Shown one piece after another: positions 18,672 to 40,823 of a stretch of 43,227 nt of DNA; position 1 is the stretch's first letter; each line of letters starts with the position of its first letter. Under the pieces are notes generated by a model, which worked only from the letters and a program-made list of their open reading frames with translations, did not search any database and was not told where the DNA came from. Both the position numbers and the translations under genes were made by a program. This stretch comes from Deltaproteobacteria bacterium (GTDB taxonomy: Bacteria > Myxococcota_A > UBA9042 > PHBI01), in assembly GCA_006226565.1 (NCBI GenBank), contig SBGO01000067.1, forward strand, positions 1 to 43,227. The letters are read 5' to 3'.

Positions 18672-26252
<7,581 letters not shown>

Positions 26253-31429: not shown

Positions 31430-31987
31430 ATGAGCGCGGGCGCCCGGTCGATGCTGCGGGACACCACCCTGGTCGTAGTGGGGGCGGCGCTGGTCGCCCT
31501 GGTCACCAACGCCGTGCGGGAAGACGGGCTCCCGCTGGTCGCGAGCGCGCCCCACGCCGTCGTCGTGCCGTGCCCCGCCGAGGTGACCGGCCCGGCGAGC
31601 CCCATCGAGGCCACCGACCCCCGCCTGCACGACGCCGGGACCGTCGTCGTCGACGCGCGCGAGGCCGAGGAGTTCGCCGCCTGGCACGCCCCAGGCGCCG
31701 AGCACCTCTACTACGACCTCCTCGCCGAGAGCCCGGAGTACCACGACGCCATCGCCGCGCTGCTCCAGACGCACCGCAGCGCGCGCCTCGTGGCCGTCTA
31801 CGGCGACGACGAGGCGGGCCTCACCACCGCCGACGGGCAGCCCGGGGACGAGGCGGGCACCGGCTTCCGTCTGGCGGGCGCGCTCTCGGCGCAGGGGCTC
31901 AAGAACGTCCACTACGTCGTCGGTGGCGCCGCGGCCCTCCGCGCCGCGCTCGGGGCCGGCGACCCGCCCGCGGGAGGCGCGCCGTGA
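31430..31987 (+). CDS. Membrane-anchored rhodanese-like protein lacking the catalytic Cys
   Basis: A 185-residue protein has one N-terminal membrane helix (about 8-28), so the domain should face the periplasm. The rhodanese landmarks are present: VVVDAREAEEFAAWHAPGA and, near the end, LSAQGLKNVHYVVGGAAALR. The active-site loop, normally VVYCxxGxRS, reads VAVYGDDEAGLTTADGQPG, so the persulfide Cys is Gly and the loop is longer. It therefore probably binds or senses and does not transfer sulfur. AGGAGG seven bases upstream makes the start firm. It is the first gene of a four-gene overlapping set with MauE-like, DsbA-like and TPR/barrel proteins. Confidence 0.85.
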   Translation: MSAGARSMLRDTTLVVVGAALVALVTNAVREDGLPLVASAPHAVVVPCPAEVTGPASPIEATDPRLHDAGTVVVDAREAEEFAAWHAPGAEHLYYDLLAESPEYHDAIAALLQTHRSARLVAVYGDDEAGLTTADGQPGDEAGTGFRLAGALSAQGLKNVHYVVGGAAALRAALGAGDPPAGGAP

Positions 31988-32478
31988 CCGCGTCCAATCG
32001 CTTCGTCGCCTGGCCCGGCCACGCCTGGCTCGGGCTCGCCGCGCGCGTCTACCTGGGCGTCGTCTTCCTGATGGCGTGCGTCCACAAGATCGCCCACCCC
32101 GAGGTCTTCGCCCTCGACATCGCCGCCTACGACTTCCTGCCGACCGAGCTCGTCAACGGCTTCGCCATCATCCTGCCCTGGGTCGAGCTGGTGGTCGGCG
32201 TGATGGTCGTCGTGGGATTCCGCGCCCGCGCGGCGACGTTGTTGATGCTGCTGATGCTGGTCTCCTTCATCATCCCCCTGGCCGTGGCGCTCGCCCGTGG
32301 CCTCGATCTCTCCTGCGGTTGCTTCGCGCCGGGCGTGGGCGAGGCCGATCCCATCTCCGGCTGGACGCTCGTCCGTGACGGGTCCTGGCTCGCCCTCTGC
32401 CTCTACGTCCTCTTCCTCGACCGGGTCCCGCTGGGGCTCGATGCTCTCCTCGCGCGCCGCCGCCGCGCGACCCTCTGA
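31984..32478 (+). CDS. MauE/DoxX-family membrane protein
   Basis: This 164-residue protein has four predicted membrane helices and the DoxX/MauE signatures RVYLGVVFLMACVHKIAHP (helix 1) and LDLSCGCFAPG (before helix 4). The Cys-Gly-Cys-Phe element is typical of MauE, a protein needed with thioredoxin-like MauD for disulfide formation during methylamine dehydrogenase assembly. The GTG start overlaps the rhodanese-like stop as GTGA. The following gene encodes a DsbA-like thiol protein, which repeats the MauE plus thioredoxin pairing and suggests quinone-linked or transmembrane thiol-disulfide transfer. No methylamine dehydrogenase genes are present. Confidence 0.88.
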   Translation: MTASNRFVAWPGHAWLGLAARVYLGVVFLMACVHKIAHPEVFALDIAAYDFLPTELVNGFAIILPWVELVVGVMVVVGFRARAATLLMLLMLVSFIIPLAVALARGLDLSCGCFAPGVGEADPISGWTLVRDGSWLALCLYVLFLDRVPLGLDALLARRRRATL

Positions 32479-32493
32479 ACCGGAGTGCCCTCG

Positions 32494-33351
32494 ATGCGCC
32501 TCGTCCTGCTCACCGCCGCCGCCCTCCTCGTGGCCCTCGCCTCCGCAAGCGCCCAGGCGGCCGGCCCCTGCGAGACCCTCGAGCCCGAGGCGAAGGCGGT
32601 CGTCGACAAGGTCTTCGCCACCGTCCACCCGCACGACTGCTGCGACGACACCCTCGACAAGTGCGTCGCCGCCGAGAAGCCGTCGAAGCTCGTCCGGCGC
32701 CTCGCCGACGTCATCTGCCGCCGCGCCGCGGCCGGGCAGGAGGCCGACAAGATCATCGAGGCGATGCAGCGCCGCGCCGTGTCGATGCTCGGCAACGGCC
32801 GCCCCGCGAAGATCGAGACCGACGGCCTCCAGTGGGCGGGCGCCGCGGACGCCAAGGTCGAGATCGTCGCCTACGTCTGCACGCGCTGTCCCTACTGCAT
32901 CCGCTGGGTCCCCGAGGTCTACAAGGCCGTCAGCGAGGGCGGGCCCCTCTACGGCAAGGCCCGCTTCGCCATCCGCCCGTTCCCGCTCTCGAGCCACTCC
33001 GGCGCGAAGGAGGGCGGCATCGCCATCGAGGCCGCGCGGCAGCTGGGCGCCTTCTGGCCCTACTTCCTGCTCGTGCTCGAGCGGCACAACACGTTCCAGG
33101 CCGACCAGCTCGCCGCTTGGTCGGCGACCGTCGGGCTCGACCCGGCCGCCTTCCAGGCGAAGATGGAGGACCCCGCCACCGAGCAGGCGGTCGTCCGGAG
33201 CAAGAAGGAAGGCATCCGCAACGGCGTCCAGGGCACCCCGACGCCGTTCCTCGACCTCAAGATGTACGATGGCGACCTGAGCCTCGCGGCGTTCGTGGAC
33301 GCCGTCCTCGAGGAGGCCGATCGTGTCGACGGGACGCTCTGCAAGCCGTAG
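32494..33351 (+). CDS. Secreted DsbA/DsbG-like thiol-disulfide protein
   Basis: This 285-residue protein has a signal peptide (MRLVLLTAAALLVALASASA, cleaved after QAA). A Cys-rich helical segment (Cys26, 49, 50, 57, 75) recalls the CcmH-like modules of apocytochrome handling. A DsbA-type thioredoxin domain (about 112-285) follows. The active site is CPYC (Cys132, Cys135), with an extra Cys at 129, in AYVCTRCPYC. The cis-proline loop is GVQGTPTPFL. It should oxidise, reduce or isomerise Cys in exported proteins. I start at ATG 32494, with GGAG nine bases before; the GTG at 32485 abuts that box. The next gene starts inside its 3' end. Confidence 0.9.
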   Translation: MRLVLLTAAALLVALASASAQAAGPCETLEPEAKAVVDKVFATVHPHDCCDDTLDKCVAAEKPSKLVRRLADVICRRAAAGQEADKIIEAMQRRAVSMLGNGRPAKIETDGLQWAGAADAKVEIVAYVCTRCPYCIRWVPEVYKAVSEGGPLYGKARFAIRPFPLSSHSGAKEGGIAIEAARQLGAFWPYFLLVLERHNTFQADQLAAWSATVGLDPAAFQAKMEDPATEQAVVRSKKEGIRNGVQGTPTPFLDLKMYDGDLSLAAFVDAVLEEADRVDGTLCKP

Positions 33352-34912
33352 CGTCGCGCTCACCGCGCTGCTGACCGCGCTCGCCGCGGCCCCGGCGAGC
33401 GCCGCTCCGTGTCCGACCGCGCTCGCCGGCTGCGCCGACGAGGCCTGCGCCATCCGCTACGCCCGCTGCGCCCTCGACGCCGAGGCCGACCCCGTGGCCG
33501 CCACGCGCGCCGCCCAGAAGGCGTGGCCCGACTCCGGGCCGCTCGCCGTCCTGGTCGCGGCCGCCTACCTCAAGGTCGACAACCCCGTCTGGGCGCTCCG
33601 GACGCTCCTCTACCGCGTCATCGACGCGCCCGAGGACTGCGGCGCGACGGTCTGGCTCGCCTGGGTGAAGCTCCGGCTCGGGCGCGCCGACGAGGCGACG
33701 GCGGTCCTGGCCGACGACCTCTGCATCGGCCGCGACGCCACCGGGACACGGGCGCTCCTGGTCCGCGCCGCGGCGGCCCACAAGAGCGGCGCGGTCGACG
33801 CCGCGACGGCGGCGCTCGATGAGGCGCGCCGCCAGCCCCTCATCGACGCCAGCGACGTCACGGCGCTCGACGCCCTGTCGCGCGCCGTCGAGCCCAACCG
33901 CCTGCGCGCCGTCGCCTGGCGCTTCGAGCCGGCGGCCGGCTACGCGACGAACCCCCTCCTCGGGGCGCCCAACGATCCCGAGGTGGCGAGGGCGACCGAC
34001 GGCAGCGGGTTCCTCCAGCTCGACGCCTGGATGCGCTTCGCGCCGGACCTCGGGAGCACCGTGCGCCCCTTCGTCGAGGCGCAGCCGCGCGTCGTCCGCT
34101 ACCTCGGCGCGGCCGCCGAGGAGCTGTCGACCGTCACCCTGTCCGGTCGCGCCGGCGTGCTCGTCGGGCGGGGCTTCCCGCGCGTGACCCTCGGGTGGCG
34201 TCCCGACTACGTGCTCATCGAGCTCGGAGACACCTACGCGCCCGGCCCGCTCTGGTACTACGGCGCCCACCGCGCCGAGCTGGAGCTCGAGGTCTCCCCG
34301 CGCCTGCTGCTGCTCGCGGGCGGCGGCCGGCGCGACTTTCGGGAGCTCGGTCGGAGCCGCTGGGAGGTCGACCTCGGCGCCGGCGGCGGGCTCCAGCTGG
34401 TGCGGCCGGTCGCCCTCGTGTGGGCCGTCACCGGCCGCAGCCACACCGCGCAGGACGAGGCCTACGATCTGCTCGGCGCCACCGCGCTCTTCAGCCTCGA
34501 CGTCCGGCTGCCGGCGTCCCTCTGGGCGCGCGCGAACGGTGGGCTCGGGCTCGACTGGTACGCGCGCTCGGCTGGCGCCTTCGGGATCGCCGACGAGCGT
34601 CGCGACGTCGCCGTGCGCGCCGGCGCCCAGCTGGGGGTGACCGTCGCTTCGGCCATGCGCGTCGGGCTCGGCTGGGAGATGACCTGGCGCGACAGCACGG
34701 TGCCCGACTACGTCGCCACCGACCACCGGCTCGTGCTGCGGGTCAGCTGGGCGCGGGAGGCCGACGTCGCCGGGCCGACCCCGGTGGACGAAGCGCTGGC
34801 CGCGCCGCTGGGCTGGGGCTTCGACGCGGCAGACGGCGCCGCGGGCGAGCGCGTCCAGGACCTCCTGCGGCGGGACGAGCAGGTCCGGCCAGGCTGCGGC
34901 TGCGGCCTCTGA
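33323..34912 (+). CDS. TPR-like protein with C-terminal outer-membrane barrel
   Basis: A 529-residue exported protein has a signal peptide (VALTALLTALAAAPASA, cut near residue 28), then Ala-rich helical repeats of TPR type (about 40-195) with several Cys. From about residue 205 to 480, alternating strands with aromatic girdles (VTLGWRPDYVLIEL, RLVLRVSW) look like an outer-membrane barrel. The GTG start at 33323 overlaps the DsbA-like gene by 29 bases and has a perfect AGGAGG six bases upstream. The chain ends in an unusual Cys tail, RPGCGCGL, not the aromatic residue usual for barrels. It could be the outer-membrane partner or a client of the thiol system encoded upstream. The family is not identified. 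Confidence 0.82.
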   Translation: MSTGRSASRSVALTALLTALAAAPASAAPCPTALAGCADEACAIRYARCALDAEADPVAATRAAQKAWPDSGPLAVLVAAAYLKVDNPVWALRTLLYRVIDAPEDCGATVWLAWVKLRLGRADEATAVLADDLCIGRDATGTRALLVRAAAAHKSGAVDAATAALDEARRQPLIDASDVTALDALSRAVEPNRLRAVAWRFEPAAGYATNPLLGAPNDPEVARATDGSGFLQLDAWMRFAPDLGSTVRPFVEAQPRVVRYLGAAAEELSTVTLSGRAGVLVGRGFPRVTLGWRPDYVLIELGDTYAPGPLWYYGAHRAELELEVSPRLLLLAGGGRRDFRELGRSRWEVDLGAGGGLQLVRPVALVWAVTGRSHTAQDEAYDLLGATALFSLDVRLPASLWARANGGLGLDWYARSAGAFGIADERRDVAVRAGAQLGVTVASAMRVGLGWEMTWRDSTVPDYVATDHRLVLRVSWAREADVAGPTPVDEALAAPLGWGFDAADGAAGERVQDLLRRDEQVRPGCGCGL

Positions 34913-34914
34913 GT

Positions 34915-34957
34915 AAAGTGTGAACAATTGGGGTCAGACCCCGAATGCTCACACTTT
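34915..34957. repeat. 43-bp nested palindrome, copy A
   Basis: Outer arms AAAGTGTGA / TCACACTTT pair perfectly around the core GGGGTCAGACCCC. The copy begins two bases after the TPR/barrel stop codon. Length and architecture equal copies B, C and F, so it is a member of a dispersed REP/MITE-like family. In RNA it would fold into a strong hairpin. Confidence 0.9.
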
Positions 34958-34977
34958 CACGTCACCGGGCGGCCAGG

Positions 34978-35020
34978 AAAATGTGAAGTGATGGGGTCTG
35001 ACCCCAGAACTTCACATTTT
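34978..35020. repeat. 43-bp nested palindrome, copy B
   Basis: Outer arms AAAATGTGAAGT / ACTTCACATTTT pair over 12 bp around GGGGTCTGACCCC, in inverted orientation relative to copy A judged by the central base. Its last two bases form part of the TAA stop (35019-35021) of the minus-strand lipoprotein gene. With copy A it occupies most of the 106-bp gap between two convergent genes and could act as a bidirectional terminator. Confidence 0.9.
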
Positions 35021-35804
35021 ACTCCGCGCTGTCGGCCGGGCAGGCGCCCGTCAGCGCGTTCGTCCACGCGGCGCTCATCTCGACGCCGACGTCCCCCTCG
35101 ATGTCCGCCGGCACCAGCGGCCCCCAGTGCCCCGCCAGGCAGCCGTGGTCGTCGACGAGCACCACGTGGTACCAGTCCGCCGAGTAGGAGTGCCAGATGT
35201 CCAGCGCCTCGCCGTCCGGCAGGACCGGGACCGTGTAGGCGGCGAAGTGCGTGCCGACCGCGGCCTCGTCGACCGGGATGCTTCCGATCTGCATGAAGGA
35301 CACCGGCGGCACGGCCTCGTCCCCGACCGCCTCGCCCAGCACCAGCAGCGCGTCGAGCAGCGCCCGGCAGTGGGAGCAGCCGACGTTGCCGAAGAGGAAG
35401 AGCGTGGTCGGCTGGTCGGCGCTGCACACGACCTCCCCCACCGTCGCCGACCGCGGGTTCAGGTCGGTCACGCAGAAGCTCGGCGCCAGCGGGCACCCGC
35501 AGTCCGTCCCGACCGGCACGCAGCGCTTCTCGAGGCACGCGTAGTCGGCGGGGCAGTCCGTCACGCTGCGGCAGCCGGCGACGCACTGATAGTCGTTGCA
35601 GACCTGCCCCTCGCCGCACTCGGCGTCGCGCGTGCACTCCGGCACCTGGCAGGCGCCGGTGGCGAGCTCGCAGATCTGCCCCACCGGGCACTCCCGATTC
35701 TGGGTGCAGCGCGAGTCGATGCACGACGGCGCCGCGGTCCAGGTCAGGAGCGCCAGAACCCCCGACAACAGCGCGAGTGGCGCGCGCTCGAAGCTCGTGG
35801 TCAT
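35019..35804 (-). CDS. Cys-rich lipoprotein with thioredoxin-fold domain
   Basis: This 261-residue protein has an N-terminal hydrophobic segment and a lipobox-like APSC (Cys28). Residues 28-104 hold four EB/Dickkopf-like Cys modules of the form C..dreCp.Gq.C...C (CTQNRECPVGQICELATGAC, CTRDAECGEGQVC, CRSVTDCPADYAC). A thioredoxin-like domain (about 120-255) follows, with CSHC (Cys143, Cys146) in LFLFGNVGCSHCRALLDALL. Such Cys modules are frequent in myxobacterial surface proteins. The CxxC domain suggests a redox or peroxiredoxin-like role in the periplasm. The frame is open upstream, but the signal sequence sets the start at 35804. Its stop codon is formed at the edge of repeat copy B. Confidence 0.86.
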   Translation of the reverse strand: MTTSFERAPLALLSGVLALLTWTAAPSCIDSRCTQNRECPVGQICELATGACQVPECTRDAECGEGQVCNDYQCVAGCRSVTDCPADYACLEKRCVPVGTDCGCPLAPSFCVTDLNPRSATVGEVVCSADQPTTLFLFGNVGCSHCRALLDALLVLGEAVGDEAVPPVSFMQIGSIPVDEAAVGTHFAAYTVPVLPDGEALDIWHSYSADWYHVVLVDDHGCLAGHWGPLVPADIEGDVGVEMSAAWTNALTGACPADSAE

Positions 35805-37734: not shown

Positions 37735-38976
37735 CTAGAGGGGCGTGAAGTCGGCGCAGCGCTCGCCGGTGAGGACCGCGAGGGCCTCGTGCACCTGGTC
37801 GAAGGTGACCCCGCCCACGAAGCGGGCGACCTCGGTCCCGTCGACGTCCTCGAAGACCAGGGTCGGGGTGCCGCGGACGCCGCGCTTGTTCGCGAAGCCC
37901 TTGTTGGCGCTCTCGCTGATGTCGACCCGCTCGACGCGCAGCCCGCGCCCGCTGCACGTCTGCCCGAGCGCGGCGACGAGCGGCGCGATCTTGTGGCAGT
38001 TCGGGCAGTCGGGCTTATGGAAGAAGAGGACGCGCGCCTCGCCCACGTTCTTGGCGGCGGCGGCGCTGTCGGCGGCCGCGAGGTCGGCGGCGGTGACCGG
38101 GTCGGCCTCGCAGTACTCGCCGGCGCCGTCGCACGCCTCGGCGCCCGGATCGGAGGTGGGCGCCGCGTGGTCGGCGCCCGGGCTCGCCTGGGCGATGCGC
38201 GGGCTCGGGTGCTCGAGCGCGTTGGCCTTGGCCTCGTGGGCGAGGTCGACCGACATCTCGGCGGAGGCGTCCTCGCCGATGCCGAAGCCGAGCAGCGTGA
38301 TGTTGTCGGTCACCATGAGGACGCCGATGACGGCGAGGGCCACGCCGGTCGCCTTCTCGATCCTGGGGATGAAGCGCTTGATGCGGTTGAGGAGCGTGAC
38401 GCCGCCGCCGGCGAGGACGGCCACGACGAGGAGCGGCACGCCGATGCCCGCCGAGTAGACGAGGAGGTTGAGCGCGCCCTCGGAGATGTGGGCGGTGCTG
38501 ACGGCGGTGTAGGTCAGGATGGCGCCGAGGACCGGCCCGATGCACGGGGTCCAGCCGAAGGCGAAGGTGAGGCCCATGGTGAACGCGCCGAGCGGCCCGA
38601 TGCGCTTGCCGCCGCCGCTCAGGTGGAAGCGCTTCTCCCGCTCGAGGAAGGAGATGTGGAGCCAGCCGAGGAACTTCAAGCCGAAGACGAAGACGAGGAG
38701 GCCGCCGAGCTGCTGCAAGAGCAGGCGGTTCTCGAGCAGGGAGGCCCCGAGCGCCGTCGCGGTCAGCCCGAGCAGGATGAAGACCACGGTGAAGCCCATG
38801 ATGAACGAGAAGCCGTTCACGAAGAGCCGCATGCGGGCGCGGGGCGAGATCTCCTCGCCGTCGCCCAGGGCGCCGCCCATCAGGACAGAGAGGTAGATGG
38901 GGATGAGCGGCAGCACGCACGGGCTCGCGAAGGTCGCGAGGCCTGCGAGGAAGATGGTACCGGTCTCGAGCTCCAT
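37735..38976 (-). CDS. CcdA-type membrane protein fused to a thioredoxin domain
   Basis: This 413-residue protein is built like a compact DsbD. Six to seven membrane helices of the CcdA/DsbD-beta family (residues 5-232) carry the two redox Cys, C20 (SPCVLPLIP) and C145 (GWTPCIGP). An Ala/Asp-rich linker (about 233-312) precedes a thioredoxin domain with CPNC (C324, C327) and the cis-Pro loop GVRGTPTLVFED. It takes electrons from cytoplasmic thioredoxin and delivers them to the periplasm for cytochrome c maturation or disulfide reduction. I start at ATG 38976, with GGAAGG five bases before. It converges with the SulP gene (22-base gap). It fits the thiol genes and the nine-haem cytochrome in this window. 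Confidence 0.93.
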   Translation of the reverse strand: MELETGTIFLAGLATFASPCVLPLIPIYLSVLMGGALGDGEEISPRARMRLFVNGFSFIMGFTVVFILLGLTATALGASLLENRLLLQQLGGLLVFVFGLKFLGWLHISFLEREKRFHLSGGGKRIGPLGAFTMGLTFAFGWTPCIGPVLGAILTYTAVSTAHISEGALNLLVYSAGIGVPLLVVAVLAGGGVTLLNRIKRFIPRIEKATGVALAVIGVLMVTDNITLLGFGIGEDASAEMSVDLAHEAKANALEHPSPRIAQASPGADHAAPTSDPGAEACDGAGEYCEADPVTAADLAAADSAAAAKNVGEARVLFFHKPDCPNCHKIAPLVAALGQTCSGRGLRVERVDISESANKGFANKRGVRGTPTLVFEDVDGTEVARFVGGVTFDQVHEALAVLTGERCADFTPL

Positions 38977-40621: not shown

Positions 40622-40664
40622 AAAATGTGAAGTCGTGGGGTCAGACCCCAAGATCTCACATTTT
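40622..40664. repeat. 43-bp nested palindrome, copy C
   Basis: AAAATGTGA / TCACATTTT outer arms flank GGGGTCAGACCCC, the same size and plan as copies A, B and F. It begins 13 bases after the menB stop. The flanks CTGAAAA and TTTTCTCC recur in the next copy, at a period of 50 bp. Confidence 0.9.
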
Positions 40665-40671
40665 CTCCTGA

Positions 40672-40732
40672 AAAGTGTGAAGTCGTGGGGTCAGACCCCA
40701 AGATCTCACCAGACCCCACGATCTCACATTTT
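40672..40732. repeat. Rearranged palindrome copies D and E
   Basis: Bases 40672-40709 match the first 38 positions of copy C (one difference), then 40710-40732 repeat its last 23 positions (one difference). The result is a 61-bp composite with a duplicated 3' half. It looks like a fusion of two copies by unequal recombination or replication slippage. Confidence 0.85.
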
Positions 40733-40738
40733 CTCCAT

Positions 40739-40823
40739 CCAGCACCCGACCCGCGTGGAAGAAAGTGTGAAGTGATGGGGTCTGACCCCCGATCTTCACA
40801 TTTTCGTCCAGCACCCGCGTGGA
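40739..40823. repeat. Direct repeat flanking palindrome copy F
   Basis: CCAGCACCCGACCCGCGTGGA (40739-40759, with a central GACCC variation) recurs as CCAGCACCCGCGTGGA at 40808-40823, on either side of copy F. It may be a duplication created when the element arrived, or an older tandem repeat into which it moved. The second copy ends at the GGAG ribosome site of the lipase gene. Confidence 0.75.
40762..40804. repeat. 43-bp nested palindrome, copy F
   Basis: AAAGTGTGAAG / CTTCACATTTT arms flank GGGGTCTGACCCC, in the same orientation as copy B. It ends 24 bases before the lipase-like lipoprotein start, so its hairpin would lie in that gene's leader or just upstream of its promoter. Confidence 0.9.

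Follow-up and report, generated by a model that had tools for sequence, protein, structure and literature searches.

A conserved set of thiol-redox genes and an outer-membrane barrel gene in Myxococcota and Acidobacteriota, a candidate disulfide maturation system

Gene content of the locus

The analysed stretch of DNA (the window) comprises positions 1 to 43,227 of contig SBGO01000067.1 of Deltaproteobacteria bacterium (assembly GCA_006226565.1, Myxococcota_A according to GTDB). It harbours four consecutive genes that code for a membrane-anchored rhodanese-like protein, a MauE-like membrane protein, a DsbA-like oxidoreductase and an outer-membrane barrel protein with a TPR domain (Table 1). 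An earlier note, made from the sequence alone, had described them as an overlapping operon. Its coordinates were confirmed, as were the 4-bp overlap between genes 1 and 2, the 15-base gap between genes 2 and 3 and the 29-bp overlap between genes 3 and 4. The results given below support its view that the thiol-redox proteins and the barrel form one conserved unit.

Table 1 Position of the operon genes and adjoining features in the window
Feature	Position	Strand	Basis or remark
Gene 1, membrane-anchored rhodanese-like protein, 185 aa	31430-31987	+	Pfam Rhodanese
Gene 2, MauE/DoxX-type membrane protein, 164 aa	31984-32478	+	GTG start; Pfam MauE
Gene 3, DsbA-like oxidoreductase, 285 aa	32494-33351	+	Pfam Thioredoxin_4 and DSBA
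Gene 4, TPR and 14-strand outer-membrane barrel protein, 529 aa	33323-34912	+	GTG start; AlphaFold2
Two palindromic GGGGTCWGACCCC repeats between convergent genes	34925-35022	no strand	matches at 34930 and 34993
Cys-rich lipoprotein-like protein, thioredoxin fold, 261 aa, 21 Cys	35019-35804	-	NCBIfam redoxin_TUGYCR

The product of gene 1 matched Pfam Rhodanese above the cut-off (30.5 bits, 5.2e-07) and was also matched by rhodaneses of the PDB, so that the fold named earlier was upheld. It features one hydrophobic segment, an N-terminal helix at residues ~8-29. In nearly all members of the family the position of the catalytic Cys is taken by Gly (loop GDGxxPDSG), indicating that the protein is not a normal sulfurtransferase and that this part of the earlier identification does not stand. 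Cys48 (in 'VPCP'), located about 20 residues past the predicted membrane helix, is kept in all 51 sequences compared.

The MauE-like protein was assigned to its family with 93.5 bits (PF07291, cut-off 27, 1.6e-26) and shows weak similarity to DoxD. The CGCF motif reported in the note is present as SCGCF, with C110 and C112 (163-aa numbering, start at 31987) invariant in 13/13 sequences. Judging by hydropathy and by the charges of the loops, the CGC loop is more likely to be periplasmic. In the MauE/MauD system of methylamine dehydrogenase maturation, a MauE-family membrane protein pairs with a periplasmic thioredoxin-fold protein, and the same pairing is found here. In contrast to that system, the partner is of the DsbA type rather than the MauD type, a rhodanese-like protein and a barrel are part of the set, and no methylamine dehydrogenase was found by eye among the listed neighbour genes of the window or its relatives, in agreement with the earlier note. 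A second rhodanese-like/MauE-like pair, lacking both DsbA and barrel genes, was observed in two loci (L051:4051-5030 and L052:5473-6431), where it follows a gene whose start resembles, by eye, an NAD(P)-dependent disulfide oxidoreductase.

The rhodanese fold and the weak DoxD similarity could also be taken to mean that the set handles sulfur, passing persulfide or thiosulfate to the quinone pool, both rhodanese and DoxX-type proteins having roles in sulfur metabolism. We regard this as very improbable. The catalytic Cys is replaced in the rhodanese-like family, no sulfur-oxidation genes recur among the listed neighbours of the set, and the DsbA-like and barrel genes would be left unexplained.

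The DsbA-like protein was matched above cut-off by Pfam Thioredoxin_4 (64.9 bits) and DSBA (52.6 bits). It consists of a signal peptide, a helical N-domain with four Cys and a thioredoxin domain with a CxxCPxC site, which contains the previously noted CPYC motif, and a Thr-Pro pair. Within the family, C50, C57, C75, C129 and C135 are conserved in 49/49 sequences, C26 in 47/47 and C132 in 48/49, while T248-P249, a Thr before the cis-Pro, is invariant. The AlphaFold2 model (predicted local distance difference test score, pLDDT, 95.2) likewise yielded a helical N-domain. The nearest solved structures to the thioredoxin domain are 3gyk, BdbD and ScsC; the protein shares this domain with BdbD, ScsC and DsbA oxidoreductases, from which it is set apart by two additions, the helical N-domain with its four Cys and a third Cys ahead of the active site. 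An origin of the N-domain from CcmH appeared plausible by eye and was rejected, the hhalign score of 14.2 falling within those of column-shuffled controls (up to 15.6). About 3 kb from the operon, a gene on the minus strand (37735-38976) codes for a fusion of a DsbD-type transmembrane domain with a thioredoxin domain.

Pfam yielded only sub-threshold TPR and barrel matches for gene 4. The AlphaFold2 model of its product, built on an alignment of 11 sequences (pLDDT 82.8), features helices at residues 40-189 and 14 long strands at 197-480, followed by a linker, a C-terminal helix and a tail. A Cys in this C-tail (Cys527 in the window) is invariant in 35/35 sequences. In the window the tail reads CGCGL rather than SSSC, in the nearest relative, genome G039, it reads CGCGK, and the barrels of these two genomes are sisters (Shimodaira-Hasegawa-like approximate likelihood ratio test, 98%). 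According to the model, the tail should be periplasmic, since the number of strands is even and the TPR domain lies in the periplasm.

Conservation of the gene set

Searching named genomes with only the MauE-like alignment and one peptide pattern as seeds yielded 49 contigs, mostly from metagenome-assembled genomes of Myxococcota and Acidobacteriota, of which about 10 are the same as contigs from whole genomes. In these loci, with genes called by an in-house script, the MauE-like gene is adjoined by the rhodanese-like gene in 49/49, the DsbA-like gene in 48/49 and the barrel gene in 36/49 cases. A single DsbA-like sequence used as query against the named genomes gave no matches; it was the MauE-like alignment that found the loci. 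Within the same class, 11 genomes encode full-length relatives of the DsbA-like protein (35-44% identity), with the other three genes beside it in each, except that the barrel gene of G039 is located elsewhere.

Of the 379 surveyed genomes of the phylum, 26 were matched by the barrel profile and 26 by the rhodanese-like profile, 24 of them by both (Fisher p = 1.8e-33); this value is only a guide, as the threshold of the rhodanese-like profile (>130 bits) was picked after the list had been seen and related genomes are not independent. The association between barrel and rhodanese-like genes also holds in family f41 on separate contigs, in some cases well inside them. Judged by both the contig and the genome counts, the neighbourhood of the four genes is conserved far beyond chance.

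The usual gene order is FGE-fold lipoprotein, barrel, rhodanese-like, MauE-like and DsbA-like, and most neighbouring genes are separated by short gaps or overlap by 4 bp. Five Acidobacteriota loci (L083, L085, L086, L094 and L098) have no FGE-fold lipoprotein gene alongside the set; after the set comes a conserved gene whose product, in most cases about 350 aa long, starts near DRLAVLE-F.

No description of the four-gene set was obtained in full-text literature searches of partial coverage, and no described orthologous system was found, consistent with the novelty suggested in the earlier note. The parts are of known kinds, whereas their combination is seemingly undescribed.

Candidate Cys-rich partners of the barrel

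The FGE-fold lipoprotein of the relatives adjoins the set in 22/49 loci. It begins with a lipobox-like sequence and contains Cys-rich repeats as well as one or two FGE-sulfatase domains (PF03781, 98.5 bits in L038), each unit having about 10 conserved Cys. The active-site Cys of FGE are spaced five residues apart in the reference; in the lipoprotein alignment, the Cys after RGGxY are nine columns apart, not five. GldK and PorK are related to the FGE fold. Consistent with this relation, the lipoprotein weakly matched the GldK profile, and numerous FGE-like domains of these genomes matched it below the cut-off. In genomes of family f8, FGE-like domains with sub-cut-off GldK scores form an expanded family, with 99 matches in G017.

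In four genomes of family f41, a gut clade, an open frame without stop runs from Cys-rich FGE domains into the TPR-barrel, and in one of the four (L163) the frame is open from a lipobox onward. This fusion suggests that the lipoprotein is a complex subunit more than a free cargo.

The fusion also bears on the possibility that the barrel serves as the translocon of a type 11 secretion (Slam-like) system, with the Cys-rich lipoprotein as its cargo, folded by the redox trio. Proteins of this system (DUF560, PF04575) have the same architecture, with a TPR domain in front of a 14-strand barrel, and their cargo is often encoded nearby (PMC8406197), comparable to the lipoprotein gene that adjoins the set in relatives. 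Weak PF04575 (SlipAM) matches were obtained in 4/17 genomes, all of them on this barrel gene and nowhere else. However, the best match reached 16.6 bits against a cut-off of 22, and the values were below the cut-off in every genome tested, so that membership of the barrel in the type 11 family was rejected despite the shared architecture. The Cys C-tail and the redox genes are additional features compared to that system. Fold searches (PDB, viral) returned general porins and, as best PDB match, the cellulose exporter BcsC, with a low TM-score of about 0.33. A lipoprotein fused to the N-terminus of the barrel is a better fit for a subunit of a complex. We therefore consider the translocon explanation rather unlikely, although for transport by the barrel our leading guess, by analogy, is that it exports proteins much as type 11 secretion does.

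In the window, the candidate partner is a different protein. The Cys-rich lipoprotein-like protein encoded convergently to the barrel matched redoxin_TUGYCR below cut-off (4.8e-11). In G155, a CGCG-tailed barrel gene is likewise convergent with the gene of a Cys-rich thioredoxin-fold lipoprotein, which shows 28% identity to the protein of the window. Since the homologue holds the same convergent position, the protein is probably the partner of the CGCG-tailed barrel in the window's genome, a proposal based on these two cases.

The earlier note had linked the unit to Cys-rich proteins, and such genes were indeed found to be enriched close to the set (19/95 near versus 7/218 far, p = 3e-6). It had suggested as a possible substrate the giant MopE-repeat protein of the window (18672-26252, minus strand; 2526 aa, 157 Cys), which features seven MopE repeats, HYR and TSP_3 domains and a MYXO-CTERM signal. 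Maturation of this protein by the trio would fit with its distance of about 5 kb, its Cys content and its surface-sorting signal. Redox genes also adjoin other Cys-rich giants in two loci that have no barrel gene: a 116-Cys protein in L049 and a 152-Cys protein with a MYXO-CTERM signal in L061, there next to the rhodanese-like and MauE-like genes. However, no specific link to the MopE giant emerged; the usual linked partner is the Cys-rich FGE-fold lipoprotein, and none of the examined relatives, not all of which were scanned for such proteins, was recorded as having a MopE-type giant next to the set. Its role as substrate is thus distinctly unlikely.

A possible disulfide maturation pathway

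Of the readings considered, the most likely is that the gene set as a whole is dedicated to the thiol-disulfide maturation of one complex in the outer membrane, composed of the barrel and a Cys-rich partner; we regard this reading as about evenly balanced between right and wrong. The MauE-like protein, with its putatively periplasmic CGC, would exchange electrons with the seven-Cys DsbA-like protein. The rhodanese-like protein, held in the inner membrane and catalytically dead, may act as docking or resolving partner via its single invariant Cys. The DsbA-like protein would then make or shuffle disulfides in two places, within the Cys-rich partner in the outer membrane and at the barrel's C-tail Cys. 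In most genomes this partner would be the FGE-fold lipoprotein, in the window probably the thioredoxin-fold lipoprotein. The tail Cys would probably form a bond with the partner lipoprotein thereafter, as the tails of PorG and SprF do with GldK.

The closest experimental parallel comes from type IX secretion and gliding in Bacteroidota, where disulfides link Cys343 of GldK to Cys in the C-tails of the barrels SprF and PorG; these tails carry Cys-Xaa-Cys or, in one species, only one Cys (PMC12635249). Such tethering to a moving track was described in 2025 as being without analogy among other mechanical systems (PMC12635249). The present barrels resemble these proteins in the predicted periplasmic C-tail with one Cys or Cys-Xaa-Cys and, in the relatives but not in the operon of the window, in an FGE-fold lipoprotein partner. 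They differ by having 14 strands and a TPR domain compared to 8 strands in PorG, and the DsbA-like, MauE-like and rhodanese-like proteins are co-encoded here, where the bond between tail and partner is itself a conjecture. By analogy, we tentatively put forward that Myxococcota and Acidobacteriota possess a disulfide-tethered outer-membrane machine with its own disulfide-forming enzymes, in which the barrel tail Cys would be bound to an FGE-fold or thioredoxin-fold lipoprotein; the chances of this being correct seem rather low.

LptD uses the general DsbA, whereas the redox genes of the present set are dedicated and co-encoded. The activation of the LptD barrel depends on disulfides (PMC10567701), a trait that the present barrel may share.

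Several observations weigh against these proposals. The barrel is not found alongside in 13/49 loci. Some of these are at contig ends: L051, L056, L069 and L096 start less than 500 bases from the trio, so that their barrel could be cut off. Some have the barrel elsewhere in the genome, with L067, L080, L090 and L096 corresponding to contigs of G039, G197, G166 and G155, respectively. The arrangement in the window is itself a variant, in which the barrel gene follows the trio and the operon contains no FGE-fold lipoprotein gene; the window's genome yielded partial matches but no full-length FGE-fold lipoprotein. FGE-like domains are abundant in these genomes, and some of the adjacency of the lipoprotein could therefore be incidental. 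No GldM match above cut-off was obtained in 17 genomes, so that the set is not claimed as part of a type IX secretion system, a membership that was rejected on this ground.

A further such point is the general oxidant VKOR, which is present in 20/21 genomes tested. VKOR-type genes also adjoin the set in several loci (a VKOR-DsbA fusion at L045:925-2226 on the minus strand, L046 and L058). The present pathway is thus an additional one and, with VKOR already available, may reduce or isomerise rather than oxidise. The trio could accordingly be an isomerase or reductase of the DsbC/DsbD kind that corrects wrong disulfides in very Cys-rich exports, with the barrel only exporting or displaying them. 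A Thr before the cis-Pro, as in the DsbA-like family, also occurs in known isomerases, and both the Cys-rich neighbours of the set and the nearby DsbD-like gene would fit. However, the VKOR-type genes beside the set point to oxidation, no dimerisation domain of the DsbC type was seen, and the invariant tail Cys of the barrel would be left unexplained. We consider this explanation unlikely.

If the proposed maturation of a barrel complex is correct, the set would represent a disulfide pathway that serves a single outer-membrane complex and is spread over two phyla. It would also provide a testable case of covalent disulfide attachment between barrel and lipoprotein outside Bacteroidota, and would suggest a candidate function for one member of the MauE family and for a rhodanese that is catalytically dead.

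Between the barrel gene and the convergent lipoprotein gene lie two of the five GGGGTCWGACCCC palindromes of the window, which form two clusters (34930-35005 and three at 40637-40789) compared to 0.11 expected. They possibly represent a dispersed repeat or a terminator element.

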